A DNA stretch of 64,000 nt, from NCBI RefSeq assembly GCF_900095885.1, contig NZ_LT615367.1, positions 1,798,001 to 1,862,000 of the forward strand, in the 5' to 3' direction. The notes below the pieces were generated by a model. The model made no database searches and was not told the DNA's origin. It saw nothing but the letters and a program-made list of their open reading frames with translations. A program made the translations under genes and the position numbers. Shown here piece after piece: positions 20,846 to 36,444 of the stretch. Within the stretch, counting starts at the first letter, position 1, and each line of letters opens with the position of its first letter. Source of the DNA: Dickeya aquatica (GTDB lineage: Bacteria > Pseudomonadota > Gammaproteobacteria > Enterobacterales > Enterobacteriaceae).

Positions 20846-21133
20846 GATGATTAACCTTTCAATGAATGAACTTCATTCTATCACGAGCTGGTCAAATTGT
20901 GTGCAGATTATATCGATGTTTTCACCACCCTGAGCGGATGAGTGACGGATGCGAGTGAAAAGCGATGGCGGGCTGTCGCCCCGTCAGGTCAGGATTTCAA
21001 GGTGTCATCGTCGTAGGGTCATGGCGAGAACGCAACCTTCGTGCTGTTGCGGGGCAAGATTCCAGCCACACCATGACGATGCCACCAGAAAATAGACGCG
21101 ACAGTTTATGGCATCTTCATCTTCCCCGAAAAT

Positions 21134-21694: not shown

Positions 21695-21736
21695 GGTTTT
21701 CAAATCCTCGCGTAAACATGCCTGTCGGCAGTATAC

Positions 21737-21792
21737 ATTGATGATGACCATAATCAAACGTGTTGACTTTTTAGATTATGATCACCATCATT
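21737..21792. promoter_or_regulatory. large inverted repeat, probable TetR operator with divergent promoters
   Basis: Arm 21737-21755 and arm 21774-21792 are inverted copies (16 of 19 matching; core GATTATGNTCA-CATCA) separated by 18 bases. On the minus strand TTGATT-N16-TATACT overlaps the first arm and would drive the repressor gene. On the plus strand TTGACT at 21764 lies between the arms and would serve the reductase gene. Binding to either arm would block both promoters. Confidence 0.7.
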
Positions 21793-21832
21793 GCGTTCAG
21801 GCTTTTAACCCTCACTTAACAAGGGAACTAAC

Positions 21833-22924
21833 ATGACGCAGCAACCACTCTTTCAGCCTTATGCTCTTGGCGCGATGACGCTTGCCAACCACATTGTGAT
21901 GGCACCGTTAACACGCAACCGTGCCGGAGCCGGTCTGGTGCCAGGCGAGCTGGCAGCAACGTATTACGCACAGCGTGCAACCGCGGGGTTGCTGATTACC
22001 GAAGCCACACAGATTTCGGCACAGGCTCAGGGCTATCAGGATACGCCGGGGATCTACACGCAAGCTCAGATAGACGGCTGGCGCAAAGTGACTGACGCTG
22101 TGCATGCCAAAGGCGGGCGTATCTTTGTACAGCTATGGCATGTAGGACGAATTTCCCATGTCGATCTGCAACCCGGTGGTGCTGCACCGGTGGCCCCATC
22201 CGCTATCCGTGCTGAGACGAAAACCTTTGTGAACAATGGCTTCTTTGACGTTTCTGTACCTCGTGCGCTCGAAACGGCAGAAATAAAAGGCATCATTGAC
22301 GATTTCAGAAAGGCATCAGCAAACGCCATCGCCGCCGGTTTTGATGGTGTTGAGATTCATGGCGCTAATGGTTATCTGCTGGAGCAGTTCCTTAAAGATG
22401 GCGCGAATCAGCGAACTGACGAATACGGTGGTTCGATTGAGAATCGGGCACGACTGCTGTTAGAGGTCACGGCGGCAGTTAAAGAGGAGATTGGCGCTGA
22501 ACGCACCGGTGTTCGCCTTTCCCCGGTTTCAACCGTTAATGCGATTTCAGGCAGTGACCTTCAGCCACAATATGACTACCTCGTTGAGCAACTCGATGCA
22601 TTAGGCATTGTGTACCTTCATGTCGTTGAGGGTGTGACGGGCGGGCCCCGTGATGCCTCGCCATTTGATTACGACTCCCTGCGCCGGCGTTTTAAACATA
22701 CCTGGATTGGCAACAACGGCTATGACCTGACGCTGGCGTCCTCGCAACTTGCGCAAGGTAAAGCTGACTTGTTTGCTTTCGGCCGCCCGTTTATCGCCAA
22801 CCCGGATCTGGTTGAACGGCTGAAAACAGGTGCGCCACTGGCGACATTCAACCCTGAAACGCTTTATGGCGGTGGGGCGCAAGGGTACACCGATTACCCG
22901 ACGCTTTCCGGGGTAACGCCATGA
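21833..22924 (+). CDS. old yellow enzyme family flavin reductase, NemA-like
   Basis: This 363-residue FMN enzyme has a TIM barrel. Visible conserved residues are Thr26 (APLTRNR), Gln100 (VQLWHVGR), and the substrate-binding His176-Asn179 with Tyr181 in EIHGANGYLLEQFL. NemA-type enzymes use NADPH to reduce N-ethylmaleimide, alpha,beta-unsaturated carbonyls, nitrate esters and similar electrophiles. SD AAGGGA precedes the ATG. It is first in a run with an SDR and an MDR reductase, and is divergent from a TetR gene, which is the nemR-nemA type of arrangement. Confidence 0.92.
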   Translation: MTQQPLFQPYALGAMTLANHIVMAPLTRNRAGAGLVPGELAATYYAQRATAGLLITEATQISAQAQGYQDTPGIYTQAQIDGWRKVTDAVHAKGGRIFVQLWHVGRISHVDLQPGGAAPVAPSAIRAETKTFVNNGFFDVSVPRALETAEIKGIIDDFRKASANAIAAGFDGVEIHGANGYLLEQFLKDGANQRTDEYGGSIENRARLLLEVTAAVKEEIGAERTGVRLSPVSTVNAISGSDLQPQYDYLVEQLDALGIVYLHVVEGVTGGPRDASPFDYDSLRRRFKHTWIGNNGYDLTLASSQLAQGKADLFAFGRPFIANPDLVERLKTGAPLATFNPETLYGGGAQGYTDYPTLSGVTP

Positions 22925-23015
22925 TATCTCAGGCACCGCGGTGCCACATCCATCGCCTATCCCGAATGGTGTTTAACCATTAAATGTTGTTTAACCATTA
23001 ATAGAGGAATACCCC

Positions 23016-23798
23016 ATGACTCACTCTTCAGTTCTGATTACAGGCGCTTCTACAGGTATTGGTGCGGTTTACGCTGACCGGTTCGCCCGCCGCGGCCACG
23101 ATCTTGTGCTGGTCGCGCGCGACAAGGCAAGACTGGATACCCTTGCCGCGCGTCTGCGGCAAGAGCATGGCGTTGACGTCGATGTTCTGCCCGCCGATCT
23201 CACGCAGTCGGCGGAACTGGCGGCAGTCGAGGCCCGTCTGCGTGATGATTCGCGGATAGGGACGCTTATCAACAATGCCGGTATTGCACAGTCGGGCAGC
23301 TTCATCGAGCAGACGCCGGATTCGATTGAGCGGCTCATCGCGCTTAACACCACCGCTTTGACGCGCCTTGCCAGCGCGGTAGCGCCTCGGTTTGTACAAG
23401 CCGGTGAAGGCACGATAGTTAACATCAGCTCTATCGTGGGCCTGGCCCCGGAATTCATGATGTCGGTTTATGGTGCCACCAAAGCCTTTGTCCTTTTCTT
23501 GTCTCAGGGAATGCATCAGGAGCTATCACCCAAAGGGGTTTACGTCCAGGCGGTGCTGCCTGCCGGAACCTACACGGAAATTTGGCAACGTGCCGGGATA
23601 GACGTCAATACCATGGCCAAAATGATGGAAGTGGGTGAATTGGTGGATGCGGCGCTGGTTGGCTTTGATCGCCGTGAGCTTGTCACCATCCCACCACTGC
23701 ACAACGCTGCCCGCTGGGATGACCTCGATGCCGCGCGACAGGCTCTGCTTTCGGACATCAAACAAGACGAAGCCGCAGAGCGCTATAAAACCCTTTAG
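23016..23798 (+). CDS. short-chain dehydrogenase/reductase (SDR)
   Basis: The 260-residue Rossmann enzyme has TGASTGIG at 9-16, NNAG at 87-90, and catalytic Ser138/139, Tyr152 and Lys156 (YGATK). The C-terminal part is of the DltE/YqjQ-like classical type. It uses NAD(P)H to reduce a carbonyl; the substrate is unknown. It follows the OYE gene by 91 bases and precedes an MDR gene, and all three may help remove reactive carbonyls under the TetR regulator. Confidence 0.88.
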   Translation: MTHSSVLITGASTGIGAVYADRFARRGHDLVLVARDKARLDTLAARLRQEHGVDVDVLPADLTQSAELAAVEARLRDDSRIGTLINNAGIAQSGSFIEQTPDSIERLIALNTTALTRLASAVAPRFVQAGEGTIVNISSIVGLAPEFMMSVYGATKAFVLFLSQGMHQELSPKGVYVQAVLPAGTYTEIWQRAGIDVNTMAKMMEVGELVDAALVGFDRRELVTIPPLHNAARWDDLDAARQALLSDIKQDEAAERYKTL

Positions 23799-23972
23799 TC
23801 AATATATGGCGCTCTGTTGCACCCCGATGACGACCATTCGGGAGTGTGACAGGGGCCAGACTGATTTTCTGGTGGATCAGGCGTGGGGATATTGCTCCGG
23901 CGGCTTCGCAAGAGAGCGCAATAAAACAGGCTAAACGCATTATTGATGCGAACATGACAGGATAAATAACAA

Positions 23973-24995
23973 ATGAATAATAACACCATGAAAGCCTTCA
24001 CCTTTAAGCGCTACGGTAAAAACCCTGACTGGGGATTTGATGACGTAGACTACCCTTCACTCGGCGCAAATGACCTGCTGGTTAAGGTGTATGCTGTCGG
24101 TCTGAATCCTATCGACACAATGATCCCGTCCGGGAAATTTAAACCGATTCTGCATTTTAAGCTCCCCGCAACATTGGGCAGTGATTTGTCCGGTGTGGTC
24201 ATTGCGGTGGGCAGTGCGGTGACCCGATTCAAACCCGGTGACGAAATCTTTGCCAGCATTTTCGATCTGGGAACAGGCGCACTCGCTGAATGTGCCGTGG
24301 TGCCTGAAAGCGCGGCGGCCATGAAGCCGACAAACCTGGATTTCGTGCAGGCGGCTGCGCTCCCAATGGTGAGCCTCACGTCCTGGCAGGCACTGGTCGA
24401 GCGTGCGAGGCTCCGGCCCGGTCAGAAAGTTTTTATCCCGGCAGGCTCCGGGGGGATTGGCACCGTGGCAATCCAGTTGGCGAAGCACCTTGGTGCAACG
24501 GTGGGAACGACAACGAGTACGGGCAATATCGAATGGGTGCAGCGTCTGGGTGCTGATGAAGTCATTGATTATAAAAAAGAAGAATTCGAAAATGTATTGA
24601 CGGATTATGATGTTGTACTCGGCACCATAAGGGGGAATGCAATCGAGAAATCGACCCACATCCTTAAAACGGGAGGGCAGATTGTTTCTCTTATCGGGCC
24701 GTTAGATAGCGCCTTCGCACGAACCCGGCGGTTAAACGTCTTGCTGACTTTTATCTTCGGGCTGATGAGCCGCAGAATGATGCGTCTTGCGAAAAGGCGA
24801 GCGCTGACTTATTCATTTCTTTTCGTGCGGCCTGATGGTGAGCAACTCACCCACATCGGTAACCTGCTGGAAACGGAACAAATCAAGCCGGTTATCGACA
24901 AAGTGTTCCCTTTTTCAGCGACAAAAGACGCACTTGACTACCTTGCCCAAGGACATGCAAAGGGAAAAATTGTCATCAAAATGCAGGAAGAATAA
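23973..24995 (+). CDS. NADP-dependent MDR oxidoreductase, quinone oxidoreductase-like
   Basis: The 340-residue protein has an N-terminal GroES-like domain (about 1-125) lacking the catalytic zinc ligands, and a Rossmann domain with AGSGGIGTVAIQLAKHLG at about 153-170. Zinc-free MDR members reduce quinones or enones. The start ATG at 23973 has AGGAT upstream; a Met five codons later is an alternative. It is the last gene of the reductase set before the island boundary. Confidence 0.88.
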   Translation: MNNNTMKAFTFKRYGKNPDWGFDDVDYPSLGANDLLVKVYAVGLNPIDTMIPSGKFKPILHFKLPATLGSDLSGVVIAVGSAVTRFKPGDEIFASIFDLGTGALAECAVVPESAAAMKPTNLDFVQAAALPMVSLTSWQALVERARLRPGQKVFIPAGSGGIGTVAIQLAKHLGATVGTTTSTGNIEWVQRLGADEVIDYKKEEFENVLTDYDVVLGTIRGNAIEKSTHILKTGGQIVSLIGPLDSAFARTRRLNVLLTFIFGLMSRRMMRLAKRRALTYSFLFVRPDGEQLTHIGNLLETEQIKPVIDKVFPFSATKDALDYLAQGHAKGKIVIKMQEE

Positions 24996-25020
24996 CGCGT
25001 GAGACGGCGGATTTTCGTGT

Positions 25021-25331
25021 CGTGAACAAAGATGTGCTGCTCACAGTGTCGCATTTATTGGTTTCTCTGCGGGTGGGGAAACAGGGTTGCTTCTGGCAGG
25101 AGGTAAGATTGATGCTTCACGTTATGTCAGCTACTGCAAGCCTCATCAGGCAGAGGCAATGTGCTTGGCAAAGGGGCAGATCAAAAATGACCGTCCGGCT
25201 CTTTCTCCGAACCGGACTTGCGCATCAAAGCCTGGGTAGTGATGGCACCGGTGAGTGCGCCTTTTTCCCCGGAGTCGCTTAACAACCTGACTAAACCAGC
25301 GTTATGTGTTGCCACGCTGGCAACAGAATGA
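25021..25331 (+). pseudogene. remnant of an alpha/beta-hydrolase (dienelactone hydrolase-like) gene
   Basis: In the frame running through 25054 the bases encode a nucleophile elbow, FIGFSAGGETGLLLAGGKID, followed by RYVSYCKPHQAEAMCLAKGQ. The frame then fails at about 25211 and the continuation, LRIKAWVVMAPVSAPFSPESL then NLTKPALCVATLATE, is one base out of phase and stops at 25329-25331. GxSxG followed by a MAPxSAxFSPESL strand is the pattern of predicted dienelactone hydrolases. The 5' part is absent, so the gene is both truncated and frameshifted. It marks the edge of the AT-rich island. Confidence 0.65.
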
Positions 25332-25645
25332 CCGCGATGACCGCTTCAATTTTAAACTCTTCGTGCTTTGTGATAACGCTTACCGCTCATGAGCACTTCG
25401 CTTTAAGCTATATTAAATGACGCTGAGGCGTGTGTTAAACCCGTGGTGATTCACATAATGGGTTTGAAACTACTGACGAACATCAGAAACGGGAAATATC
25501 AATAGCGGCTTGGTGAGACAGAGTTATACATCCCGGTTGCAAGTGATTTATGGCCCTATGTACGGTGCCCCTGTCAGAATTGACAGTTTTCTTTAATTTC
25601 TAAAAAGCGTTTACTGAGTTAAGAAATTAGAGGGTACTGTGAAAA
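25332..25645 (+). other. promoter region of the AfsA-like operon
   Basis: No gene is seen in these 314 bases. Composition changes here from GC-rich to AT-rich. The lux-box-like dyad at 25569-25588 is the main feature, and a weak SD (AGAGGG, 25629-25634) precedes the first operon gene. Confidence 0.5.
25569..25588. promoter_or_regulatory. lux-box-like operator upstream of the AfsA-like operon
   Basis: CCCTGTCAGAATTGACAGTT contains CTG-N10-CAG with the dyad CTGTCA-GAAT-TGACAG. It agrees with the classical lux box at the conserved CCTGT...ACAG positions. Its centre is about 68 bases before the start codon. If it were at -42.5, as in LuxR-activated promoters, transcription would begin near 25621, which leaves room for the SD. 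Confidence 0.65.
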
Positions 25646-26530
25646 ATGAAAGATACTAAATTATACACTCACAAGAGAAATGAAAACGATATATTCATCA
25701 CTGATATATCGAAGATCTCTGACAACCATTTTCAGTGTGATTTTAGACTAATTACCGAACATGATTTTTACTGTGATTTTCTCGCTTGTACGAACAGAAT
25801 AAACCCAATTTTTTTGTTAGAATGCGCAAGACAGGTTGAAACTTATTTGTCACATACTGAATTTGGTGTAACACTGGACAGTAATTTTCTACTCGACAGT
25901 TGGTCAGTGAAATACTGTCCGACAAGGACAGGAGATGCAGAAAATCTGAAAGCTGATATTTACTCAACATACCCGGCTGTTGATAAAACGAATAAAAATG
26001 AATTCAATATTATTTTCAAAACAAACACAACAGTCATCTGTACAGTTATAATAGATGTAAGATATATAAGCAGTCATTGTTATAAGCGCATACGCCGAGT
26101 TCCTTATGGAATCAATACGTCTGAAGTCATAGCGCCGCTTTCTCCTGCCAGTGTTTGTTATACATCTCATGAAAATGTCATTCTGGCAGATTTGAATGAT
26201 AATGGACCGTATGTTAAGGCAATAATTCATGTTAATTTAAATAACATATCACTTAATGATCATGAACAGGATCATATCACGGGTATGAATCTTACCGAAG
26301 CAGCTAAACAAATATGTTATAGCTACCTGTCACTATATATGAATGAAAAAAGTGATAGATTTATTCCTGTAAACTTAAAAGCATTTTTCTTTAAATTTGT
26401 TGAAAAGCACATCCCAGCATTCGTTGCAATAAAGAAAGTAGAATTACAGGATAAAACTTATTCCTTTGAAGTCGATGTAATTCAGGATGAAAACACGCTG
26501 GCCACCATTAATTTAAAACTGAGAGGTTAG
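25646..26530 (+). CDS. AfsA-family protein (A-factor / gamma-butyrolactone synthase-like)
   Basis: The 294-residue protein has two hotdog-like repeats, as AfsA/ScbA do. Repeat one has PIFLLECARQVETYLSHTEFGV (Glu59, Arg62, Gln63) and repeat two has DHITGMNLTEAAKQI (Glu218, Gln222), both matching the AfsA patterns (E-x-x-RQ, and DHxxGMxLxEAA-Q). In Streptomyces, AfsA joins a beta-ketoacyl chain to dihydroxyacetone phosphate to make a butenolide phosphate, the precursor of gamma-butyrolactone hormones. Here it heads an operon with an ACP and a ketosynthase that could supply the ketoacyl chain, and a phosphatase that could remove the phosphate. The chemistry in this organism is inferred from family and context. 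Confidence 0.82.
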   Translation: MKDTKLYTHKRNENDIFITDISKISDNHFQCDFRLITEHDFYCDFLACTNRINPIFLLECARQVETYLSHTEFGVTLDSNFLLDSWSVKYCPTRTGDAENLKADIYSTYPAVDKTNKNEFNIIFKTNTTVICTVIIDVRYISSHCYKRIRRVPYGINTSEVIAPLSPASVCYTSHENVILADLNDNGPYVKAIIHVNLNNISLNDHEQDHITGMNLTEAAKQICYSYLSLYMNEKSDRFIPVNLKAFFFKFVEKHIPAFVAIKKVELQDKTYSFEVDVIQDENTLATINLKLRG

Positions 26531-26531
26531 A

Positions 26532-26771
26532 ATGGATAAATTAAAATATTTACTCAAAAATGTATTTGGTGTTTCTGAAAGTGATGCTCAGGATAACAAA
26601 ACTCTTGAGAATATGGATCTTGACTCTATATGCATAATCGAGTTTCAGATCGAAATTGAAAGGACGTTTAATATTGATGAAGGCCAACTGGCTTTAATTA
26701 GTAGCGATACTTTGCAAACAATCATGGAAAGAGTCAGAGGACTACAGCCTGTAGAATTAAAAGACGTATGA
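26532..26771 (+). CDS. acyl carrier protein
   Basis: This 79-residue acidic helical protein carries the phosphopantetheine attachment motif LDSICIIEF, with Ser32. It begins two bases after the AfsA-like stop and overlaps the ketosynthase start by four bases (ATGA), so the three genes are translationally coupled. It would hold the growing or condensed acyl chain for the adjacent ketosynthase. It is distinct from the housekeeping AcpP, whose motif is GADSLDTVE. Confidence 0.9.
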   Translation: MDKLKYLLKNVFGVSESDAQDNKTLENMDLDSICIIEFQIEIERTFNIDEGQLALISSDTLQTIMERVRGLQPVELKDV

Positions 26772-27997
26772 ATATAAAAAACAAAGTTGTGGTTACAGGC
26801 ATGGGGATCATATCCTCAGCCGGTCATACACCAGAAAAGTGTCGTATGACTCTGCTTGAAGGGAAAGGAATGGCAAAACCCGATCCCCGATTGAGCCATC
26901 TTGATGTCTCATGGTCTTGCCCCATTCAGGATTTTGTACCTGAACAGCATATAAATAAATCATTGATTTGGCGATGCGACCCCTTTATTCAGTATGCTAT
27001 ATACGCGGCTCAGCATGCAATCAACGATGCAGGTTTAGACAAACATAATAGAGGAGTAAAAACAGGTATTGTGCTGGGTAATTCCCTCGCAGGTATAACC
27101 TCTCTGGAAACACTGAACAAAAGAGCCGTTCAGGAAGGAGTAGGAACAATTGGATCACTATATATCTTGTCCACGATGGGAAGCATAGCAACGGGTAATT
27201 TAGCTATTGAACTCGGTATCCACGGGCCGACCTATCTTACAGGTACGGCATGCTCATCCGGTGCAGATGCGATAGGAACTGCCAAACGTCTTATCCAAAG
27301 CGGGGAATGCGATATTGTTCTTGCCGGTGGCAGTGAGGCTCCAATCACACCACTTGTTCTTTCCTCTTTTACAAAGATCGGCGCACTTTCAAAAAATAGC
27401 GATCTTTTGCACGCGTCACGGCCATTTGATAAAGAAAGAGACGGTTTTGTCATCTCCGAAGGCGCTGCGGTCATGGTATTAGAAAATGAAAAAACGGCGT
27501 TGGCTCGTGGAGCCAAAATTTATGCGACGTTGTCCGGATATGGTTCAGCAAATGATGCGCATCATATTACGTCACCTGCACCTGATGGTTCTGGATTATC
27601 TCAATCAGTTTATGAGGCGCTGGAGGATGCTTCGTTATCTCCGATTGATATTCAGTGTATCAACGCACACGGTACATCAACACCTCTGAATGATCATATT
27701 GAGGGAAGTGTTTTGTTCCGCATATTCGGTAACCGTCCATGGGTAACATCAACAAAGGGCGTTACCGGACACAGCCTTGCCGCAGCGGGAGCAATGGAAG
27801 CTGTTTTTTCTGTATTAAAAATCATACATGATGAAATTCCTCCTGTTGCTGGTTTAAGACATATTGATGATGAAATAAAAATCAATATTGCAACAGAAGT
27901 CATACAAGGGACGGGTATTAAAAATGTGCTCAGTACATCTCTGGGGTTTGGTGGGCAAAATGCTGCTCTGATATTTTCTCAATACAAAAAAGGTTAA
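26768..27997 (+). CDS. beta-ketoacyl-ACP synthase, FabF-like
   Basis: The 409-residue thiolase-fold enzyme has the complete catalytic triad: Cys162 in GTACSSG, His301 in NAHGTSTPLND and His335 in KGVTGHSLAAAG. It should carry out decarboxylative Claisen condensation of malonyl-ACP with an acyl primer. Together with the adjacent ACP it could provide a dedicated beta-ketoacyl-ACP for the AfsA-like enzyme. No ketoreductase or dehydratase is in the operon, consistent with a chain left at the keto stage. Length and motifs are normal for FabF. Confidence 0.93.
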   Translation: MNIKNKVVVTGMGIISSAGHTPEKCRMTLLEGKGMAKPDPRLSHLDVSWSCPIQDFVPEQHINKSLIWRCDPFIQYAIYAAQHAINDAGLDKHNRGVKTGIVLGNSLAGITSLETLNKRAVQEGVGTIGSLYILSTMGSIATGNLAIELGIHGPTYLTGTACSSGADAIGTAKRLIQSGECDIVLAGGSEAPITPLVLSSFTKIGALSKNSDLLHASRPFDKERDGFVISEGAAVMVLENEKTALARGAKIYATLSGYGSANDAHHITSPAPDGSGLSQSVYEALEDASLSPIDIQCINAHGTSTPLNDHIEGSVLFRIFGNRPWVTSTKGVTGHSLAAAGAMEAVFSVLKIIHDEIPPVAGLRHIDDEIKINIATEVIQGTGIKNVLSTSLGFGGQNAALIFSQYKKG

Positions 27998-28002
27998 TAA
28001 AC

Positions 28003-28698
28003 ATGAACATCAAGAAAATAAAGTTATTTGCGATCGACAGTGATGGTGTTGTTCTGAATGACACATACAGCCCAGCAATTAAAACTTTTGTTGAATCTCT
28101 CGGCGTGGATTACTCACCATTGATCGAACGAAGTGTCTGGGGGTCTCCACAAATTACCGCAGGCCATAATCTCGCATTAGCCTGTAAACTTCCTTATTCA
28201 GGTGAAAAAGTTATTAATGATTTTTTCAGAACCAGAGATCATTACCTTAAAGAACATCCGGTTGAAGTTATGCCCGATATCGAATCAACGCTGGCGTTGT
28301 TACAAAGTACCGGGGCACGTATGACCTGCTATGGAGGAAGAAATAAAGAATATAGCTTCGACAAGTTTTTAAAACCATTTGAAAATTATTTTGATAAAGA
28401 GATGCCATATATTGATATCAATGCCTTTCGTCCGGGGATGTATGAAATTGTAAAAGAAAAATTCAACCTGAATTTTGATGAGGTTGTTTTTATTGATGAC
28501 ATCAATCGTGTTGCAGAAGTGTGTAAGGCCCTGGGCGCTGGATTTATAGGTATTCCTGCTTCCATGCCGCATAACTTCCAGCGGGAAGAGATGGTCAATA
28601 CTGGTGTTAAATATATGGTGAACAGGTTTACGGACATTACAGAAGACCTCATATATGAAGTTGACGAGCGCCTGGTTTCTGCGGCTCTGTGGAAATAA
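28003..28698 (+). CDS. HAD-superfamily phosphatase
   Basis: The 231-residue protein starts with motif I FAIDSDGVVLN (nucleophile Asp12, general acid Asp14) and has motif IV VVFIDDINRV near residue 166; a cap domain occupies about 20-95. It resembles phosphoglycolate phosphatase-type HADs. In gamma-butyrolactone routes a phosphate from dihydroxyacetone phosphate must be removed, and this gene is a good candidate for that step, by inference from position. It begins five bases after the ketosynthase stop. Confidence 0.85.
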   Translation: MNIKKIKLFAIDSDGVVLNDTYSPAIKTFVESLGVDYSPLIERSVWGSPQITAGHNLALACKLPYSGEKVINDFFRTRDHYLKEHPVEVMPDIESTLALLQSTGARMTCYGGRNKEYSFDKFLKPFENYFDKEMPYIDINAFRPGMYEIVKEKFNLNFDEVVFIDDINRVAEVCKALGAGFIGIPASMPHNFQREEMVNTGVKYMVNRFTDITEDLIYEVDERLVSAALWK

Positions 28699-28711
28699 AC
28701 TAAGGTACAGC

Positions 28712-29872
28712 ATGGAAAAGTTCAGCAATACAATTCTGATTTTTCTTATACCTATAATATGCGGGTTTACCGCAGCCAATATGTACTACGTTCAGCCGTT
28801 GGCTCCTGTGATCAGCAGTGAACTGATGGTTTCTTATGAAAAAGCATCCATGCTGTATTCATTTTCTCTGGCTGGCAACGCACTATCTTTATTTTTTATA
28901 ATTCCTCTAGGGGATTTTTACAGTAAAAGAAAATTAATCACACTATTGTATTTGGTTTCCACTGTATCGTTATTGATGTTTTTTTTTACAAAAAGTTATT
29001 ACGCATTGTCTGCTACGGCATTTTTAATTGGAACGGGAACATCTGCCATTCCATTAATTACCGCTGGTCTTAGCAGACAAAAAAATGGAACTAAACATAT
29101 AGACCGAATAATGGCCGGTGTATTAACAGGCATTCTTTTTTCCCGTTTTATGTCGAGTATGCTCAGTGAGCTCTGGGGATGGAAGTCGATATATGCTATA
29201 GCATCAATACTGATGTTTCTATCCTGTATATTGCTATTTATCTTTTATCCAACATCATATGATAAGAATAATCAAGATAAAAGCTCCTACATCCGTATTT
29301 TATATCTGAACATTAATGGAATTAGGCAGGATGTTGCAATTAGGCATTATTGTTTTAATGCCTTTTCCATTATGTTCCTGTTCTCCGCATTCTGGAGCAA
29401 TGTTTCTATGTTTCTGACAACGACTTTCCATTTCAGTCAGTCACAGGTTGGTCTTTTTTCGTTGACAGGTGCTACTGGGGCTTTATCCGTTCTTTTTTCA
29501 TCCTGGATACTGAAAATCATAAACCACAAAAACAATCCTCTGTACTTTTTGATTGTTATAAGTCTACTGATGATGGGGATTTACGGGAATAATTTGATTA
29601 TTACCATCACAGGTGCACTACTAATTGATGCATTTATTCAGTTAATACATGTCAATAATCAGCGTGGGCTTTTTCTTTCCTGCAAAGGAAATGAAGCACG
29701 AGCCGCAAGTTGCTATATGACAAGTTTTGTTACTGGTGGCGCAATTGGTGGGTTTATATCTTCTTATCTCTATTCCGTATCTGGATGGAGTGTGGTGCTG
29801 ATTAGCTGCGCAATCATTACCTTAATTCCAATGTTTATGAAACTGCGAGAAAACGTTAATGAAAAATATTGA
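28712..29872 (+). CDS. MFS transporter (DHA1-like)
   Basis: The start is the ATG at 28712 (AAGG upstream); the frame is also open into the HAD gene, which is not a likely start. The 386-residue protein has about twelve membrane spans and the MFS A-motif-like loop GDFYSKRKLI after TM2. The N-terminal sequence FTAANMYYVQPLAPVI is typical of drug:H+ antiporter family members. It overlaps the transketolase start by 14 bases. The likely role is export of the operon product. AT-rich like its neighbours. Confidence 0.88.
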   Translation: MEKFSNTILIFLIPIICGFTAANMYYVQPLAPVISSELMVSYEKASMLYSFSLAGNALSLFFIIPLGDFYSKRKLITLLYLVSTVSLLMFFFTKSYYALSATAFLIGTGTSAIPLITAGLSRQKNGTKHIDRIMAGVLTGILFSRFMSSMLSELWGWKSIYAIASILMFLSCILLFIFYPTSYDKNNQDKSSYIRILYLNINGIRQDVAIRHYCFNAFSIMFLFSAFWSNVSMFLTTTFHFSQSQVGLFSLTGATGALSVLFSSWILKIINHKNNPLYFLIVISLLMMGIYGNNLIITITGALLIDAFIQLIHVNNQRGLFLSCKGNEARAASCYMTSFVTGGAIGGFISSYLYSVSGWSVVLISCAIITLIPMFMKLRENVNEKY

Positions 29873-30578
29873 GATATCACAGAATAAAAGAGAGCTTCTG
29901 AATCATTATTTGTCACTGATGACGGGTGATGAAAAGCACGCAGATTCCTCTATTTCCACACTCGATGTCATCCAGGTATTATATGATAAAGTCCTGAATT
30001 GCTCGCCAGAAAAAGTACGAGATGAATACCGGGATCGTTTCTTTTTGTCAAAAGGGCATGGTCCAATGGCATTCTACGCCGTACTGGCATTAACGGATTT
30101 TATTAAACCTGAACTTCTGAAAACCTATGGTGAATATGACAGCATACTAGGATACCACCCGGACAGAACAAAACTGGACTGCGTGGAAATATCCAGTGGT
30201 TCGTTAGGACATGGGTTACCTTTGGCTATTGGCTCCGCTCTTGCACTACGCGCCAGAGGAATTACAGGACCAAAACACTGGGTCCTTATTGGGGATGCAG
30301 AACTTGATGAAGGCTCTAATTTTGAAGCTATTCCTTTTGCAGGCAGGCGCGGACTATCAGAGTTAAATGTCGTGGTCATAGACAATGACTCATCAACTCT
30401 TGGTTGGCCGGGTGGAATATCACACCGGTTTTCAATTGAAGGCTGGGAGGTCAGCCGTGTTAACGGCAGAGATCAAGAAGAACTGTACCAGGTGTTTTCC
30501 AAAGAGCATCCTCATAAACCTCACGCTATTATCGCAACAGTAGAAACTAAATCAGGTAAAGCCCGCAGACAAATTTAG
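29859..30578 (+). CDS. transketolase-like protein, N-terminal (thiamine diphosphate-binding) half
   Basis: The 239-residue protein carries the ThDP-binding signature GDAELDEGSNFEA (145-157) ending in VVVIDNDS, with upstream SKGHGPM (65-70) and SGSLGHGLPLAIG. These match the first domain of transketolase, and the second domain is the next gene. Split transketolases occur in several natural-product clusters and in archaea. They move a two-carbon ketol unit between sugar phosphates or onto other acceptors. The actual substrate here is unknown. Confidence 0.88.
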   Translation: MKNIEISQNKRELLNHYLSLMTGDEKHADSSISTLDVIQVLYDKVLNCSPEKVRDEYRDRFFLSKGHGPMAFYAVLALTDFIKPELLKTYGEYDSILGYHPDRTKLDCVEISSGSLGHGLPLAIGSALALRARGITGPKHWVLIGDAELDEGSNFEAIPFAGRRGLSELNVVVIDNDSSTLGWPGGISHRFSIEGWEVSRVNGRDQEELYQVFSKEHPHKPHAIIATVETKSGKARRQI

Positions 30579-30587
30579 GAGAATAAA

Positions 30588-31517
30588 ATGAATAAAGTTT
30601 TAACTTGGGATCAACGATTTGCTGAAATAAACGCAATGAGACAACGATTTGCAGTCGTCATGTCAGACTTGATTCGGGAAAAAGATAATGTCGCACTGGT
30701 TCTTGCAGATATTACCGCAGAAAGATTCAGTGAGGTTTTAAGCGATTTTCCTGACCGGGTTGTCAATGTCGGGATCAGAGAACAACTGATGATCGATATG
30801 ATTGGTGGCCTGGCATTATCCGGTATGCGTCCGTTTGCGCATACCTTTGCCAGTTTTCTAATCGAACGCCCTTTTGAGCAAATTAAAATTTCACTGAATC
30901 ATCAGAATGTCGGTGCTGTGCTGGTCAGTGCCGGTGCCTCTTATGATTTGTCAGTTGATGGACGGACGCATCAATCACCCGCTGATGTTGCAATGCTTAA
31001 TACACTAGCAGATTGGAAAATAATCGTTCCTGGAAATGCAGTGGAAGCAGAGTACGCACTTAGAATCGCAGCAAACGATACCGGCCTGTACTACATTCGG
31101 TTATCAACAGAAACAAATAAGCAAACATATTGGTCAGGTGAAAATAGCTTTACGGTACTGAGGACTGGTCATCAGGGGACCATAATTGCAGTCGGTCCTG
31201 TTGCTGACAGAGTATTAGAGGCTACAGAGGATCTTGATATAACGGTGCTGTACGCGCCGGTTATATCTCCTTTTGACAGCGCAACATTACGGAACACTCT
31301 TTCAGTTCCGGATATCGCAATTGTTGAGCCGTATCTGGAAGGTACCACGTCCCATGCAATTTCTGAGGCATTGTCGGATGTCTCTCATCGAGTATTATCG
31401 ATTGGCGTAAAGCGAAAAGAATTAAGGCAATTTGGCACACCGGAAGAACACATCAAGGCTCATGGGCTTGATATACATGGATTAAGAGAACGTCTTGCCG
31501 GGTTCTACCATCACTAA
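30588..31517 (+). CDS. transketolase-like protein, C-terminal half
   Basis: The 309-residue protein has the pyrimidine-binding domain, including the catalytic-type Glu65 in NVGIREQLMI that activates ThDP, followed by a transketolase C-domain (about 190-300). It follows the N-terminal half after nine bases with a good SD (AGGAG), so the two would form a heterotetramer. It is the last operon gene and ends at a 15-bp hairpin shared with the convergent LuxR gene. Confidence 0.88.
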   Translation: MNKVLTWDQRFAEINAMRQRFAVVMSDLIREKDNVALVLADITAERFSEVLSDFPDRVVNVGIREQLMIDMIGGLALSGMRPFAHTFASFLIERPFEQIKISLNHQNVGAVLVSAGASYDLSVDGRTHQSPADVAMLNTLADWKIIVPGNAVEAEYALRIAANDTGLYYIRLSTETNKQTYWSGENSFTVLRTGHQGTIIAVGPVADRVLEATEDLDITVLYAPVISPFDSATLRNTLSVPDIAIVEPYLEGTTSHAISEALSDVSHRVLSIGVKRKELRQFGTPEEHIKAHGLDIHGLRERLAGFYHH

Positions 31518-31519
31518 TA

Positions 31520-31554
31520 TATGATCTGACAAGGAAACACCTTGTCAGATCATA
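31520..31554. terminator. 15-bp hairpin between the operon and luxR-type gene
   Basis: TATGATCTGACAAGG (31520-31534) pairs perfectly with CCTTGTCAGATCATA (31540-31554) around AAACA. The luxR-type stop codon (31545-31547) is inside the right arm, and the transketolase stop is three bases before the left arm. No U-tract follows on either strand. Confidence 0.65.
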
Positions 31555-32165
31555 CCTTGGGATGTCGCTTTAAATATTGCATAACGTACAGATGTCACAT
31601 CCAGCTTACTGAGAACATTATTAATATGAAATCTTACAGTCCTCTCACTCACACCGAGAATCATTGCTACCTCTATATAAGTCTTCCCAATTTTCAATAA
31701 ATTCATGACTTCCTTTTCCCGTCCCGTAAATGCATAGATGGTCTTTTGCTCATAGTGTTCCTCAAAAAGGCTCAAGACATTAAACAAAATCTTATGCTTT
31801 TCACTGGCGTATAATTTAACAAAATCATCATTATCGTCATTAAAATATACAGTAAAAATCACTATTTCATATTTTATTTTTATAACAAAAGTCACTCCGT
31901 TGTGAATTCCATACTTTTCGGATAATATTTTTATATCCTTGTTATCCGTATTTACAGTAGACCATTTAAAGGGGGTGGTTTTATTTTTAGCCTTTAACAC
32001 TATATTGCTTCGAATATGTAGTTTTCTTTTAATGAAATCTCGCTCCCAACAATCTGGCAGGTTTGATACAATTGAAACTTCATCGAGAGGATTGATCGTA
32101 ATAATCGAGTATCTTTTTATGTGTATTTCATTAATGTACTCTTCCACGAATATTTTCATCATCAT
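31545..32165 (-). CDS. LuxR-family regulator with degenerate AHL-binding domain (LuxR solo)
   Basis: The 206-residue protein has an N-terminal region that aligns without gaps to the TraR/LuxR autoinducer domain over Trp40 (TraR Trp57), Phe44 (Tyr61) and Trp68 (Trp85), with Gly90 in YGIHNGVTF. The key Asp70-Pro71 of AHL receptors is Ser53-Asn54. The C-terminal HTH (147-200) keeps Glu150, Leu and Gly160 in TGREKEVMNLLKIGKTYIEVAMILGVSERTVRFHINNVLSKL. Three ATGs in a row begin it; the second (32162) has the best spacing to GAGG. No luxI gene is nearby. The altered pocket suggests a ligand that is not an AHL, and the neighbouring AfsA-type operon is the obvious source. Confidence 0.85.
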   Translation of the reverse strand: MMMKIFVEEYINEIHIKRYSIITINPLDEVSIVSNLPDCWERDFIKRKLHIRSNIVLKAKNKTTPFKWSTVNTDNKDIKILSEKYGIHNGVTFVIKIKYEIVIFTVYFNDDNDDFVKLYASEKHKILFNVLSLFEEHYEQKTIYAFTGREKEVMNLLKIGKTYIEVAMILGVSERTVRFHINNVLSKLDVTSVRYAIFKATSQGMI

Positions 32166-32646
32166 GATGCCTCATATGTTAGATTTCACTCCCTGAGTCA
32201 TTACTTCTATTAAATTTCACGCACAATGCAATATTTCATTTTAATATCTAAAAAATCGTTTTTTATCAATCACAAATGATAAATAAAATGGCATCATCAG
32301 TTAAATAATCTTATCCGACCGATATTACCACAAAAACAAACTAAATAACGTTTGTCTACTAACAAAGTCAAAAATATCACTCATGATATTTTTTGTATTT
32401 TAAAAACAATTCTTTATCACTGCGTTCCTTTGTAAATATCCACTTCAAAGAAAAAGGCCGGTTTAGACCTGAATAGCATGATCATTTAATAGTATGTTAT
32501 TCATATGTATGAGATCATTCTTGTATATTATCAACTGAAATTTACTATTGCCATTGGCCTATTCCCTAACAGCTCATTACCAGATAAAAACCAGCGTTGA
32601 TGACATGAGATTTATTTTCTCTCAATTGTTCCGATAATATACAGAA
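32166..32646. other. AT-rich non-coding region upstream of the luxR-type gene
   Basis: About 480 bases of very AT-rich sequence with no credible ORF and no recognised gene remnant. It holds the promoter of the luxR-type gene. I found no CTG-N10-CAG element here, so there is no visible sign of autoregulation. Confidence 0.5.
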
Positions 32647-32676
32647 TAATCCTACCCACATAATATGGACACCGCC

Positions 32677-33531
32677 CTAAGCGAGGTTCTGGTTTTCAAA
32701 TTGTTCCGGGCTGAGACCGCCACAGGCACTGTGACGACGCCAGCGATTGTAATCACGCTCAATATAATTAAACACCGTTGTCCGCATTATTTCCCGGCTG
32801 ATAAAGCGTTCCCCGTGGATACATTCCACTTTCAGTGAGTGGAAGACGCTTTCCGCACACGCATTATCGTAGCAACAACCTTTTGCGCTCATGCTGCCGC
32901 GCAGGCTGTGCCGCTTCAGCAATGCCTGATAATCCGCTGAACAGTACTGTCCGCCGCGATCCGTGTGAACGATAACGTTCTTCGGGCGTTTACGCCGCCA
33001 GAGTGCCATCTGTAACGCATCGCAGGCCAGTTTTGCTGTCATTCGTGAGGACATCGACCAGCCAATAACGGCACGAGACCACAGGTCGAGCACCACCGCC
33101 AGATACAACCAGCCTTCATCTGTACGTAAGTAAGTGATGTCACCCGCCCATTTCTGATTTGGGCCGCTGGCGATAAAGTCCTGCTTCAGCAGGTTTTCCG
33201 ATACCGGCAGGCCGTGCTCACGGTAGCTGACCGGGCTGAATTTACAGCTGGCTTTCGCCCGTAATCCCTGACGACGCAGGCTGGCAGCGATGGTTTTGAT
33301 GTTGTACTCCGGCAACTCATCAGCAAGGCGCGGCGCACCATACCGCTGCTTTGCCTCAGTGAATGCCTGACTGACGGTAGTATCGCAGATGAGCCGGAAC
33401 TGCTGGCGTGGGCCGGGTTGATGGCGACGTTTGAGCCAGGCATACCAGCCGCTTCGGGCAACCCGCAGCACCCGGCACATGGCTTTGATGCTGAACTCAG
33501 CCTGATGCTTTTCGATGAAGACAACCTTCAT
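32677..33531 (-). CDS. IS3-family transposase OrfB, copy 1
   Basis: The 284-residue DDE integrase-fold protein has [29 protein letters not shown] with the first Asp, [11 protein letters not shown] with the second, and [15 protein letters not shown] with the Glu. Its ATG overlaps the OrfA stop by four bases. It differs from the copy 2 protein at scattered residues, so the two copies are not a very recent duplication. Confidence 0.9.
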
Positions 33532-33827
33532 TTCAGGCGCTTCGCGAAGTCTGTCGCGGCCTTTTGGAGAATGGCCAGTTCTTCATCCCGTTCAGCCAGT
33601 TGCCGCTTAAGGCGGGCGATTTCAACAGACATTTCCTGCTCACGTTCGGAAGAAGAATGGGCATTCTTTAGCTTGCTGCGCCAGGCATAGAGCTGTGATT
33701 CATACAGGCTGAGTTCACGAGCAGCAGCAGCGACGCCAATACGCTCTGCCAGTTTCAGGGCCTCATCGCGGAATTCAGGTGTGTACTGTTTACGGGCTGT
33801 TTTGCTGGTTGATGCTGGTTTTGTCAT
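33528..33827 (-). CDS. IS3-family OrfA, copy 1
   Basis: The 99-residue protein has an N-terminal HTH ([27 protein letters not shown]) and a Leu-rich coiled coil ([24 protein letters not shown]), the standard OrfA of IS3 elements. It ends at the OrfB start. Confidence 0.9.
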
Positions 33828-34029
33828 GAGTAATCACCTCTGGTTGAGAGTTTACTCACTTAGTTGCGTGTCCACTAATGATGGGTAGGATCACTTTTTC
33901 AACCTTTAATCAATTGATAAAAATAGTATGTGGGAATTTATTTTGTCTTTTTCATTTGAATATAAACACTGCTGATAACCAGTATAAAATAACAATACTC
34001 AGAAAATAAACCCATCTCATCTGTTGATA

Positions 34030-34055
34030 TATATAATTAATGTGTTAATTATATA
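34030..34055. repeat. perfect AT palindrome upstream of a small ORF
   Basis: TATATAATTAA (34030-34040) and TTAATTATATA (34045-34055) are perfect inverted copies around TGTG. It lies 28 bases before the small ORF and could be an operator or cruciform-forming site. Confidence 0.6.
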
Positions 34056-34082
34056 AATATGACACATCGGAGAAAATTAATA

Positions 34083-34208
34083 ATGAAAGAAATAAAAACG
34101 CTAAAAGAGGCTATTCAGGTATATAAAGAGATCATTAAAATAGAAAAGGATCATGGCGATCTTTTCTATGCAGGAAAAATCCCTGAGCAGGAATGGAATG
34201 CTAAATAG
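34083..34208 (+). CDS. small hypothetical protein (41 residues) trapped between ISs
   Basis: An ATG at 34083 with GGAG nine bases upstream opens a 41-codon frame (MKEIKTLKEAIQVYKEIIKI...), charged and predicted helical, ending TAG at 34206-34208, 25 bases before the IS5-family element. No family is recognised. It may be a genuine small protein or the surviving part of a gene lost during IS insertion. The palindrome just upstream favours a functional promoter. Confidence 0.4.
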   Translation: MKEIKTLKEAIQVYKEIIKIEKDHGDLFYAGKIPEQEWNAK

Positions 34209-34233
34209 CTTCTCATATTACCGCTCCACTTTA

Positions 34234-35155
34234 GGCTGTGTCCCTTAACTTAACAACCGCTTCAAAAATAACCTGATCGCCCCCAGCTTTAGCATACTCA
34301 GGTAGTTTCTGGCTGTTTTTTCCGAGCGTGTAGCGATACGACGATTTTCTTTGAGTATCGCAAAGCAGCGCTCCACGACATTGCGTTTTTTGTACAGGCC
34401 TCTGTCGAGGGGCCGACGTCTGTCCTGACTGGCTTTTTCATTCGATTTAAACGGAATTACCACTTTTATTCCCTTTATTTTCAAATGAATGCGGAGGCTG
34501 TTACTTGAGTAACCCTTATCCGCCAGTACCGCTTTCGGACGCGATTTCAGATGCCCACTTCTTCGGATAATCCCGACGCGGTTAAGCAACGTTTCCGCAT
34601 ACCGGCTTTCGTGGGCCTGTCCACCGCTCAGGCAAAAACTTAGCGGTAATCCTGTGCCATCTGTCGCCAGATGGATTTTGGTGCCAAAGCCGCCGCGTGA
34701 GCGACCCAGCCCATGGTCCTCGTGTTCATCGGGATGTTTTTTTTCGCACCAGCGGCCGCTTTCAGGGCGCGAACGTTACTGCCATCCAGCGCGATAACAT
34801 CCCAGTCAATCAGTGCGCCCTCATCCAGAATCTGGAGTAATTTATTGAAAATACTGTTTATTACTCCGGCTTTAGACCACCGGTTAAAGCGGTTGTAAAT
34901 CGTTTTCCATTGACCATAACGCTCAGGTAAATCCCGCCATGGCGCGCCGGAGCAAAGCACCCAAAATATGCCATTCATGACATGCCGGTGAGCAAAGTAA
35001 GGACGGCCGCCTCTGGAAGAGCCTCTTTCAGGCGGCAGCATGGGAGAAATCAGCGCCCATGCATCATCGGGAAAATCGTAACGAGCCAAATTGAAGTACT
35101 TTTTGTGGCAAAATCATGTCCCTGATTGTACAAAAAACAGTTACGGGACACACCC
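34234..35155 (-). mobile_element. IS5-family (IS427-type) insertion sequence, copy A (922 bp)
   Basis: The ends read GGCTGTGTCCCTTAAC at 34234 and, on the complementary strand, GGGTGTGTCCCGTAAC at 35155; TA flanks both sides. It has inserted into the 3' end of the adjacent IS630-family transposase gene. Copy B at 51521-52442 has the same length and orientation. Confidence 0.88.
34245..35089 (-). CDS. IS5-family transposase (copy A), read by -1 frameshift
   Basis: The first frame (35089 to 34640, MARYDFPDDAWALISPM...) and the second (ending 34245) are joined by a -1 shift at an A8 run (34737-34744 on the complement). After the shift the protein reads KKHPDEHEDHGLGRSRGGFGTKIHLATD and continues to the C-terminal KRNVVERCFAILKENRRIATR, the usual DDE transposase end. 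Programmed frameshifting is known in IS427-type elements, and the same A8 run is kept in copy B, so both copies look functional. Confidence 0.85.
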
Positions 35156-36179
35156 TAGTCAGGCCAGGTTGGTTGCCGGCAAATGGTGAAGCTGCATTCA
35201 TAAATTGCGTTACCTGTTTCAGTAACTGCCACAGGTACTGGCACTGATGGTTTCGCGTTATTGTCTCGTGTAACGATAGCCACAACCGCTCTATCGGATT
35301 CAGCCACGGCGAATAGGTCGGCAGAAACAGCAGCCGGAACTTGCTGTTCTCCGCCAGCCAGCGCTCCACTTTGTGGCTTTTATGGATGATGTCGTTATCA
35401 ACCACCAACGTAATGGTTTTCGCCCGCCGGTATATGCGTCGTAATGCCTCTAACAGTTGGATAAATAAATCAGAGCTCTTGCTGTTGCCACTAACGTAGG
35501 AGACTCGGCCCGTCCCCGAATGCAGTGCGCCAGCCAGATAATGTTTCTGGTTCTGTCCCGGCGTGGCGATACGTTTCTGCTGCCCTTTGGGCATCCAGTC
35601 GGCACCGATTTTCGGGTTCAGGTCGATATCGACTTCATCCTGATAAAACACGGGATTAGCCGCTGAGCCCTGAGCCAGCGCCTGCTCGATGGCAAGCCGC
35701 TTTTCATCATAATGCGGGTCCCTGATTTTCAGCGTCGGTGCGGCCCTGCGCCAGACCATACCGGCCTGTTTGAGGTATCGGTGCAGGGTGGAGCGGTGAA
35801 GCGTCACGTCAAAAAGCCGGTTGACGATACGGGTCAGTAACTCCGTGCTCCAGCGGGAGCGCAGCCAGCCGAAATCCTTCGGTGAACGTTGAACCAGCAA
35901 GGGAAGCACACGCTGGATATCGGCGACGGGCCAGCAAGGCGCACGACCGGGCCTGAGGCTCTTGAGTCCTTCAACACCCTGTAAAGTAAACCAGTTTATC
36001 CATCTTCCGACGGATGAACGCGCAGCACAGAGCAGTCTGGCGACGTCGGTGACGGTCATTCCCCGATGCAACATCAACATGGCAATGAGTCGTCTGGCAT
36101 AATTTTTATCGCGTGTTTGTTGGGCTTCTTTGCACATCAGTTGTCGTTCTTCATCAGGGATTGCTGCTATGATCGGCAT
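35064..36179 (-). CDS. IS630-family transposase with 3' end replaced by an IS insertion
   Basis: The protein has an N-terminal HTH (GMTVTDVARLLCAARSSVGRWI) and the DDE triad of IS630/Tc1-mariner: YQDEVDIDL, TLVVDNDIIHKSHKV, and PTYSPWLNPIERLW. From Arg at base 35157 onward the sequence (RVCPVTVFCTIRDM...) is encoded by the IS5-family terminal repeat, so the last native residues are lost. Activity is doubtful. A short inverted repeat (CTCAGTCCG / CGGACTGAG) lies just upstream, near the likely IS630 end. Confidence 0.85.
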   Translation of the reverse strand: MPIIAAIPDEERQLMCKEAQQTRDKNYARRLIAMLMLHRGMTVTDVARLLCAARSSVGRWINWFTLQGVEGLKSLRPGRAPCWPVADIQRVLPLLVQRSPKDFGWLRSRWSTELLTRIVNRLFDVTLHRSTLHRYLKQAGMVWRRAAPTLKIRDPHYDEKRLAIEQALAQGSAANPVFYQDEVDIDLNPKIGADWMPKGQQKRIATPGQNQKHYLAGALHSGTGRVSYVSGNSKSSDLFIQLLEALRRIYRRAKTITLVVDNDIIHKSHKVERWLAENSKFRLLFLPTYSPWLNPIERLWLSLHETITRNHQCQYLWQLLKQVTQFMNAASPFAGNQPGLTRVCPVTVFCTIRDMILPQKVLQFGSLRFSR

Positions 36180-36378
36180 CGCTCAGTCCGGTTGGTGATT
36201 TGTGATGTTTGGCGATTGATCAGATCGCTCAACTCGGACTGAGTTCCCTTCAAGTGATCTACTATTTTGCGAAGCTATTTAGCGTATACAGGGTTATGTG
36301 TTTCCCTGTATATGATGTTAACTGGAACGAAATTTATATGAGTAATGAACTTCAAAAGAAATTCTCACAATGGGAGTT
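36180..36378 (+). other. spacer with dyad and a truncated gene start
   Basis: The dyad TATACAGGG (36285-36293) and CCCTGTATA (36304-36312), spaced by ten bases, precedes an ATG at 36338. That ATG opens MSNELQKKFSQWEF before the frame is cut by the IS3-family copy at 36379. It looks like a promoter with operator and the first 14 codons of a lost gene. Confidence 0.5.
36338..36378 (+). pseudogene. 5' stub of a gene interrupted by an IS3-family element
   Basis: ATG at 36338 begins MSNELQKKFSQWEF; the IS begins at 36379 and the frame then reads only five IS-derived codons to a stop. Beyond the IS (37626 onward) the sequence is part of another transposase, so the rest of this gene is not in the window. 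The family is unknown. Confidence 0.4.
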
Positions 36379-36444
36379 TGATCCTACCCATCATTAGTGG
36401 ACACGCGACTAAGTGAGTAAACTCTCAACCAGAGGTGATTACTC

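Follow-up and report, generated by a model that had tools for sequence, protein, structure and literature searches.

The DNA analyzed here is a 64-kb stretch (the window, 64,000 nucleotides in all) of the Dickeya aquatica genome, contig NZ_LT615367.1, and the subject of this report is a cassette at positions 25569-32165 of that window, in which a lux-box-like dyad, a seven-gene plus-strand operon headed by a gene of the AfsA type and a convergent luxR gene make up one conserved unit (Table 1). Neighboring genes of the operon overlap or are separated by no more than 9 bp. The first-pass annotation had described an AfsA operon with luxR, and all eight genes were found at the place it gave. Its coordinates can be taken as the borders of a real unit, because a DNA alignment with three Escherichia coli relatives starts at 25569-25570, at the dyad, and runs on to the luxR start codon or its immediate vicinity (32134-32165), with 76-77% identity over about 6.6 kb. 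The cassette is AT-rich, with a GC fraction of 0.35-0.45 in 1-kb steps across 25001-33000 versus 0.51-0.56 across 20001-25000. The dyad that had been noted in front of the operon is perfect and is kept in the E. coli copies. The terminator said to be common to operon and luxR also proves real, as a stem-loop kept in the aligned E. coli copies, though no long T run follows on either side; its 15-bp perfect stem folds at -23.1 and -25.5 kcal/mol on the two strands, a stability reached by 0 of 200 shuffles on either strand. LuxR is the only regulator inside the cassette, which thus holds no partner of the TetR type as found in the gamma-butyrolactone (GBL) systems of Streptomyces; by eye, a TetR-like open reading frame (ORF) lies outside it, at 21134-21757.

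Table 1. Features of the AfsA-LuxR cassette, in window coordinates (strand "." where a feature has no single strand; aa, amino acids)
Feature	Position	Strand	Basis or remark
Lux-box-like dyad CTGTCA-N4-TGACAG, then TTT	25571..25586	.	CTGTCAGAATTGACAG
-10-like hexamer TTTACT, putative role	25610..25615	+	34 bp centre-to-centre from dyad
AfsA-type double-hotdog protein, 294 aa, probable butenolide synthase	25646..26530	+	PF03756, shared blocks, structure model
Acyl carrier protein (ACP), 79 aa	26532..26771	+	PF00550; DS motif
FabF-like ketosynthase (KS), 409 aa	26768..27997	+	PF00109, PF02801; Cys-His-His motifs
Haloacid dehalogenase-type (HAD) hydrolase, 231 aa, probable phosphatase	28003..28698	+	PF13419; DxDG and DD motifs
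Major facilitator superfamily (MFS) transporter, 405 aa, probable exporter	28655..29872	+	PF07690
Transketolase N-terminal half (thiamine diphosphate-binding)	29859..30578	+	PF00456; GD...G motif; PDB 6yak
Transketolase C-terminal half	30588..31517	+	PF02779; GIREQ and DGxTHQ motifs; PDB 6yaj
Shared convergent stem-loop, terminator-like	31520..31554	.	Folding and E. coli conservation
LuxR-type regulator, 206 aa, pocket motif W-F-S-N-W-G	31545..32165	-	PF00196, PF03472, structure model

Models for AfsA, ACP, KS, MFS, Transketolase_N, Transket_pyr and both LuxR domains all score over their Pfam cut-offs, and catalytic motifs are present in the ACP, the KS, the HAD protein and both transketolase halves. 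The AfsA protein scores 95.4 bits against a cut-off of 24 in two hotdog stretches, and it has LLECARQxET and DHxxDH blocks in common with actinobacterial AfsA proteins, to the fetched examples of which it is 24-31% identical. The AfsA alignment took in 22 of 25 matches, with P0010, P0020 and P0021 left out as short. The structure model of the AfsA protein (mean predicted local distance difference test score, pLDDT, of 88) matches hotdog thioesterases and dehydratases; a PDB sequence search with the protein returned no match. The HAD assignment is marginal in Pfam, with HAD_2 at 25.0 bits against 23.8 and PF00702 just under its cut-off at 26.3 against 26.4, but HADs encoded by the AfsA clusters of Erwinia persicina, Actinophytocola and Streptomyces melanogenes share 54-58% identity with the protein. 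Transket_pyr reaches 93.3 bits in the C-terminal transketolase half, where Transketolase_C, at 24.5 bits, falls just below its cut-off of 25.9. By sequence, the closest PDB entries to the two halves are 6yak and 6yaj, the two-chain split enzyme of Carboxydothermus, and the cassette likewise encodes separate chains with their motifs intact. The operon of E. persicina (L015) reads AfsA-ACP-KS-HAD-AKR-MFS-PHP with a LysR gene, and that of S. melanogenes (L011) has the order AfsA-KASIII-ACP-KS-HAD. This recurring AfsA-ACP-KS-HAD core shows that the module is a biosynthetic one whose tailoring genes can be exchanged.

A plausible route follows from these families. The KS and ACP would supply a beta-ketoacyl-ACP, which the AfsA-like enzyme would join to a 1-hydroxy-2-ketone, either dihydroxyacetone phosphate (DHAP) or a transketolase-made ketose phosphate, to give a phosphorylated butenolide; the HAD enzyme would strip the phosphate and the MFS protein would export the product. 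Transketolase products are 1-hydroxy-2-ketones, and the split transketolase is proposed as the ketose supplier because this is the type of compound that AfsA-type enzymes use; it could just as well act on an intermediate further along the route. A role as a glycolyl-ACP loader of the NapB/NapD type was considered and not used. The operon contains no reductase or oxidoreductase gene, so the product may stay a butenolide. The joining of beta-ketoacyl thioesters to DHAP by an AfsA-like domain, yielding a phosphorylated butenolide, is described in the available part of PMC7756379, whereas a pentulose is proposed as the substrate of MmyD, and AvrD is said to take xylulose, in the available part of PMC12593393.

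The convergent gene encodes a LuxR-type regulator, recognized by GerE (PF00196) at 54.5 bits and Autoind_bind (PF03472) at 30.0 bits. Its model (pLDDT 87) matches QscR (E 2.3e-14), SdiA and RhlR over nearly its full length, and its ligand domain has a shorter N terminus than those of three aligned canonical LuxRs (L073, L074 and L075), all of which read W-Y-D-P-W-G by eye. These letters stand for six pocket positions of TraR, namely W57, Y61, D70, P71, W85 and G113, of which D70 binds the amide of the acyl-homoserine lactone (AHL), according to the available part of PMC4414361. Pocket residues were counted in 48 of 59 LuxR matches, leaving out the short or partial P0046, P0054, P0071, P0073 and P0074 and the six distant matches P0079-P0084. 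W57 is kept in 47, W85 in 48 and G113 in 47, while Y61 is replaced by F in 47 and D70 by S in 47; position 71 is occupied by E (18), N (16), D (9) or another residue (5), and by Pro in none. The family therefore reads W-F-S-x-W-G in place of the canonical motif, which argues against an ordinary AHL ligand, and AHL sensing by the cassette LuxR was judged unlikely from D70S and the absence of Pro at 71. A lactone without the AHL amide would fit a pocket in which W57 is kept and D70 is lost, and in the mechanism that we propose LuxR would be activated by just such a lactone, the operon's own product.

A nucleotide search of 5426 complete E. coli genomes placed the operon in 13, at about 75% DNA identity, and luxR in 17, including all 13 operon carriers (among the E. 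coli records, 8178 is present three times and SCU-101 and 2018-06-4CC twice). In 13 of 13 operon-bearing assemblies the distance from the matched operon stretch to luxR is 2053-2056 bp. The co-occurrence of AfsA-like and luxR genes, for which the first-pass annotation had suggested a search, is thus positive throughout these assemblies, and in the aligned E. coli relatives the pairing it had pointed out is a conserved unit that runs from the dyad to luxR. Six of the 13 operon places and three of four luxR-only records were opened. All six operon places are on islands resembling integrative and conjugative elements (ICEs); AlpA and DUF2857 ICE core genes follow the cassette in each, and in the five other than A38 it lies near a tyrosine integrase beside tRNA-Asn. 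Type IV secretion genes were seen in T309.Ta3, BCE049, CFE299, 3-72 and A38, and colibactin genes in SCU-101, where they lie about 6 kb further on in the same stretch as L019:12077-18597. Nothing in the window matches any of nine neighbor proteins of the ICEs and of A38, including the permease, binding protein and porin of A38.

The three luxR-only records that were opened, E. coli 2018-06-4CC, NRZ14408 and YF-1 (L032-L034), hold a stub of tktC, the transketolase C-terminal half, together with luxR and without the AfsA operon. In L032, the only such element that was aligned, A38 positions 11936-17758 are missing, and the DNA flanking the gap on either side matches that of A38 at 94-95%. Because of the stub in all three and the flank match of L032, these elements look like deletions, and we read those of the L032 type as having probably lost the synthase and kept the receptor; the cassette of E. 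coli would accordingly be carried on ICEs, some of which retain the receptor by itself. L032-L034 are possible receptor-only listeners.

Pairwise identities of AfsA and LuxR are closely correlated (r = 0.98, with 0 of 5000 permutations as high) over nine pairs, five of which were matched up solely by the equal length of the longest contig and among which L018 and L021 are near-copies. Such co-divergence shows linkage, as it would for any genes that travel together, and not function. Orthologs are sporadic: of 392 same-family genomes, the window's own is the only one with a strong match, both for AfsA (516 bits, the next being 117) and for LuxR (335 bits, the next being 142). Counting that genome, AfsA matches occur in 2 of 97 relatives, 8 of 394 genomes of the order and 14 of 392 of the family. 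At E 1e-25, LuxR matches occur in 10 of the 394 genomes of the order, nine of them at no more than 111 bits versus 335 for the window. Besides that genome's own there are 13 AfsA matches in the family, eight of which have open frames of 334-338 aa and are distant. In four of the contexts (L060-L063) no other cassette protein was matched, and a Pfam scan of parts of L061-L063 gave HAD-P450-MFS and PPDK-like neighbors; a Gilliamella AfsA gene (L012) is similarly without any other match to the cassette. The source names given for relatives are Klebsiella, Citrobacter, Salmonella, Serratia fonticola, Vibrio mimicus and Bisgaard taxon 10/6. Viral contigs yielded 16 pattern stretches and no relative. 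Among plasmids, tblastn with AfsA returned 93 records, all below 60% identity and 89 of them from Streptomyces, and LuxR gave no match at E 1e-20. A distant plasmid DNA search returned IS3-type matches and the transketolase of Streptomyces clavuligerus pSCL4, which adjoins MFS and condensation-domain genes in a stretch where, as shown, no AfsA is annotated.

The dyad is perfect before the operon in all six opened E. coli places. Upstream DNA of the window otherwise aligns poorly with that of E. coli, the exception being CCTGTCA-N4-TGACAGTTT; the best 20-bp block there has 18-19 matches in three comparisons, a level not reached in 100 shuffles of one comparison, where the maximum was 16. In the 4.5-Mb genome the perfect dyad is unique, about 0.27 occurrences being expected from the base composition of the window. 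With the TTT included, there are one perfect site and two with one mismatch, the control pattern giving one. A lux box centered near -42 stands about 33-34 bp from the -10 element. Five promoters, three of them of E. coli afsA and two of porin genes, have TTTAAT 33 bp from the dyad center, although two of the former and both of the latter are near-copies, and the window has TTTACT at 34 bp. Since a better-scoring hexamer occurs elsewhere in the window, TTTACT was chosen under the guidance of the E. coli copies. In A38 a second dyad (one mismatch) precedes the porin gene, with TTTAAT at 33 bp, and in L032-L034 the dyad before the porin is perfect. Control of the ICE transfer genes by the dyad was also considered and rejected, as the type IV secretion genes of L018, L021 and L069 are not preceded by any dyad, even with up to two mismatches allowed; the matches in L069, with two mismatches each, are at 2022 and 34701.

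A search of the 392 same-family genomes at E 1e-35 returned three LuxR matches, the window's own and those of G715 and G611, both of which are canonical LuxRs convergent with LuxI (loci L073 and L074). The dyad precedes luxI in these loci, perfect in L073 and with one mismatch in L074, and its center is 67.5 bp from the ATG in L073, exactly as in the window and two E. coli copies. L074 belongs to the same ICE type as E. coli T309.Ta3, to the proteins of which its hypothetical protein (50%), AlpA (81%), DUF2857 (59%) and transglycosylase (63%) are identical to the extent given. Its LuxI/LuxR pair is directly before those ICE genes, which in T309.Ta3 come after the cassette luxR. As canonical pairs carry the same dyad before luxI, and one is in the same ICE place, the AfsA operon holds the position of luxI in a circuit that is otherwise similar. 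Beside the pair, L074:2807-5471 holds DHQ-synthase-like, SDR and NT5C-type genes, perhaps another small-molecule pathway. No LuxI (PF00765) is found next to the cassette luxR. The single LuxI match of the Dickeya genome (290 bits, C1:4316070) is 2.5 Mb from the cassette along the contig and has its own convergent LuxR, with the full W-Y-D-P-W-G. With canonical systems the cassette shares a lux-box-like dyad before the presumed synthase gene and an adjacent receptor gene.

Control of the operon by LuxR through the dyad, as proposed in the first-pass annotation, is very probable, given the conservation of the dyad and its presence before luxI in the nearest canonical pairs. The convergent LuxR would act at the dyad to drive the operon, hence autoinduction, and in A38-type elements the porin gene as well. 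That the operon's product is both the ligand of LuxR and a lactone of the AfsA type is somewhat favored. Taken together, we read the cassette, at a probability of roughly 0.6, as an autoinducing LuxR-type circuit in which LuxI is replaced by an AfsA-type operon and the signal is an AfsA-type butenolide. We are evenly divided over a broader proposal, that in enterobacterial ICEs LuxI and an AfsA butenolide operon are interchangeable in one circuit with related convergent LuxRs and the same box, the pocket having been retuned in the process by Y61F, D70S and a change of P71 mostly to E, N or D, from an AHL to a lactone like the hormones of Streptomyces. If this is correct, an autoinducing LuxR circuit is read by a butenolide, and actinobacterial butenolide signaling and proteobacterial LuxR lactone signaling are joined in E. 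coli and its relatives. A quorum-sensing synthase would have been swapped on a mobile element with receptor type and promoter kept, the ligand class of a LuxR pocket would change through three positions, and producers and apparent receptor-only strains would form a natural set in which receptor-only derivatives could listen to producers.

Several observations weigh against this circuit. Four of 17 luxR-bearing E. coli genomes are without the operon, a pattern that the first-pass annotation had named as telling against its proposal if regular; the luxR gene is thus found by itself, yet the three opened cases look like deletions, as described above. They show in any case that LuxR can persist without the synthase operon. 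In E. coli SCU-101 the AfsA match is in two pieces and luxR is annotated as two ORFs, and both look interrupted. The AfsA protein scores 114.1 bits with the ScbA/BarX equivalog model NF041195, short of its cut-off of 200, so an A-factor-like product is not assured; by this score the protein is a relative and no ScbA equivalog. PluR and PauR require an Asp that the cassette LuxR does not have (PMC4414361, available part), and a wholly different ligand, or none, is therefore possible. At the promoter, TTTACT matches the -10 consensus in 4 of 6 positions while a hexamer with 5 of 6 sits 16 bp from the dyad center, and a promoter scan listed no sigma-70 promoter at the afsA-upstream site. Elsewhere in the genome, dyads with one mismatch number 16, versus 6 for a control pattern; these 16 may be further targets or a palindrome bias. 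In L074 the distance from dyad center to ATG is 80.5 bp, and neither luxI promoter (L073, L074) has a top-ranked -10-like hexamer at 33 bp.

The rival that deserves most attention, though we consider it unlikely, grants that LuxR acts via the dyad and makes it a pathway-specific regulator that answers to another ligand, a compound of the host or of a neighbor, or to none, while the operon makes an antibiotic or effector. AfsA-family enzymes do build antibiotics or portions of antibiotics, as for methylenomycin and gladiostatin (PMC12593393 and PMC7756379, available parts), an AfsA locus on the Pantoea element ICEPan was interpreted as antibiosis (PMC4458695, available part), and in transcriptomic data for Chromobacterium subtsugae, which has an AHL system, AfsA and HAD genes are strongly up in the quorum-sensing-on state (PMC12114271, available part), a precedent for an AfsA operon under LuxR-type quorum sensing. 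The persistence of LuxR and a boxed porin in L032-L034 without the synthase points the same way, but the strict pairing of LuxR and operon in E. coli and the co-divergence of AfsA speak for a closer bond, and the LuxI-like position with its box better fits a pair of synthase and receptor. Those boxed porins are also the starting point of a much less probable alternative, in which the product is a scavenger such as a metallophore, and LuxR, porin and a FecCD-type importer form a secretion and uptake system in A38-type elements. A FecCD permease, an ATPase, a binding protein, an MFS protein and a porin do lie beside luxR in A38 and L032-L034, and the A38 porin has a dyad of its own; against this, the other five opened E. 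coli places show no annotated importer within their stretches, the A38 permease, binding protein and porin are without a match in the window, and we know of no chelator-making enzyme among the eight families matched by the operon. The FecCD-type ABC importer and MFS genes stand upstream of luxR and in the same direction (L020:18790-23116 and L032:9477-13803).

Were LuxR to sense AHLs made by the genome's own distant LuxI, the cassette would be an ordinary AHL-regulated operon. The LuxI match 2.5 Mb away makes a source available, but that LuxI has its own convergent LuxR with an intact motif, and Ser at position 70 in 47 of 48 proteins, with Pro at 71 in none, renders this quite improbable. Least credible of all is a reading in which the dyad has nothing to do with LuxR and forms a small hairpin that serves as attenuator or terminator. 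A terminator scan does list it, as a 6-bp stem followed by TTTTCTTT, which counts against the autoinducing circuit, and the dyad of L074 is also trailed by several T, interrupted; the perfect dyad before luxI in L073, however, has no T run after it, and five promoters, near-copies among them, share the same spacing to TTTAAT.

Outside the cassette, the window holds an IS3-like remnant on its left (25306-25469) and, by eye, a cluster of transposase-like ORFs on its right (32677-38349), within which an IS1222 frameshift element spans 38232-38349. A second biosynthetic gene group at 39341-51479 (GC 0.34 at 39-40 kb) includes a chorismate-binding enzyme, an ATP-grasp protein, an aldehyde-dehydrogenase-like protein, a MATE exporter, a DAHP synthase and a formyltransferase with a carrier domain. 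On the minus strand, an ORF of 2859 aa at 11940-20519 is by eye a large glucan-synthase-like protein.

A literature search, with most subscription papers and all preprints outside its reach, found no description of this locus, the closest reports being those of the AfsA genes of C. subtsugae, of ICEPan and of a Klebsiella michiganensis island, and AfsA is absent from the available text of a review of LuxR solos (PMC10134790). Other AfsA genes keep different regulators for company: a LysR gene on the K. michiganensis island, according to the available part of its description, and a MarR gene beside the AfsA-HAD operon of C. subtsugae (available part of the source), where the cassette has luxR. 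The operon of E. persicina shares the four core genes and their order with the cassette, its HAD being 54.5% identical, but it adds a reductase, a PHP protein and LysR where the cassette has transketolase and LuxR. In the pathway of methylenomycin MmyD and syringolide AvrD a butenolide synthase would condense a beta-ketoacyl carrier and a ketose (PMC12593393, available part), and the part played by the transketolase can be modeled on this, although, unlike that pathway, the operon encodes no oxidoreductase. With the GBL and butenolide systems of Streptomyces the cassette has in common an AfsA-family enzyme accompanied by a HAD hydrolase.

The AfsA/ScbA systems of Streptomyces use TetR-type receptors; the cassette instead has a LuxR, its own ACP and ketosynthase, and a split transketolase. 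The LuxR solos PluR and PauR (class C), to which the locus had been likened from the start, also have an altered W-Y-D-P-W-G motif and a non-LuxI pathway next to them (PMC4414361 and PMC10134790, available parts). Their motifs, T-Y-D-Q-C-S and T-Y-D-Q-Y-I, keep Asp70, whereas W-F-S-x-W-G loses it, and their pathways use pyrone or dialkylresorcinol enzymes rather than AfsA. According to the available part of the review (PMC10134790), the synthase genes of these systems are outside the control of their own LuxR, without autoinduction. The analogy thus holds for a LuxR beside a non-LuxI pathway, and it fails for the box before the synthase, in which the cassette is like LuxI/LuxR and unlike PluR/PauR. 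From LuxI/LuxR quorum sensing by AHLs the cassette differs in having no LuxI, in the seven-gene AfsA operon that would serve as synthase and in the changes at Y61, D70 and P71; it resembles those systems in its convergent receptor gene, in the box before the synthase and in a dyad like those of L073 and L074.

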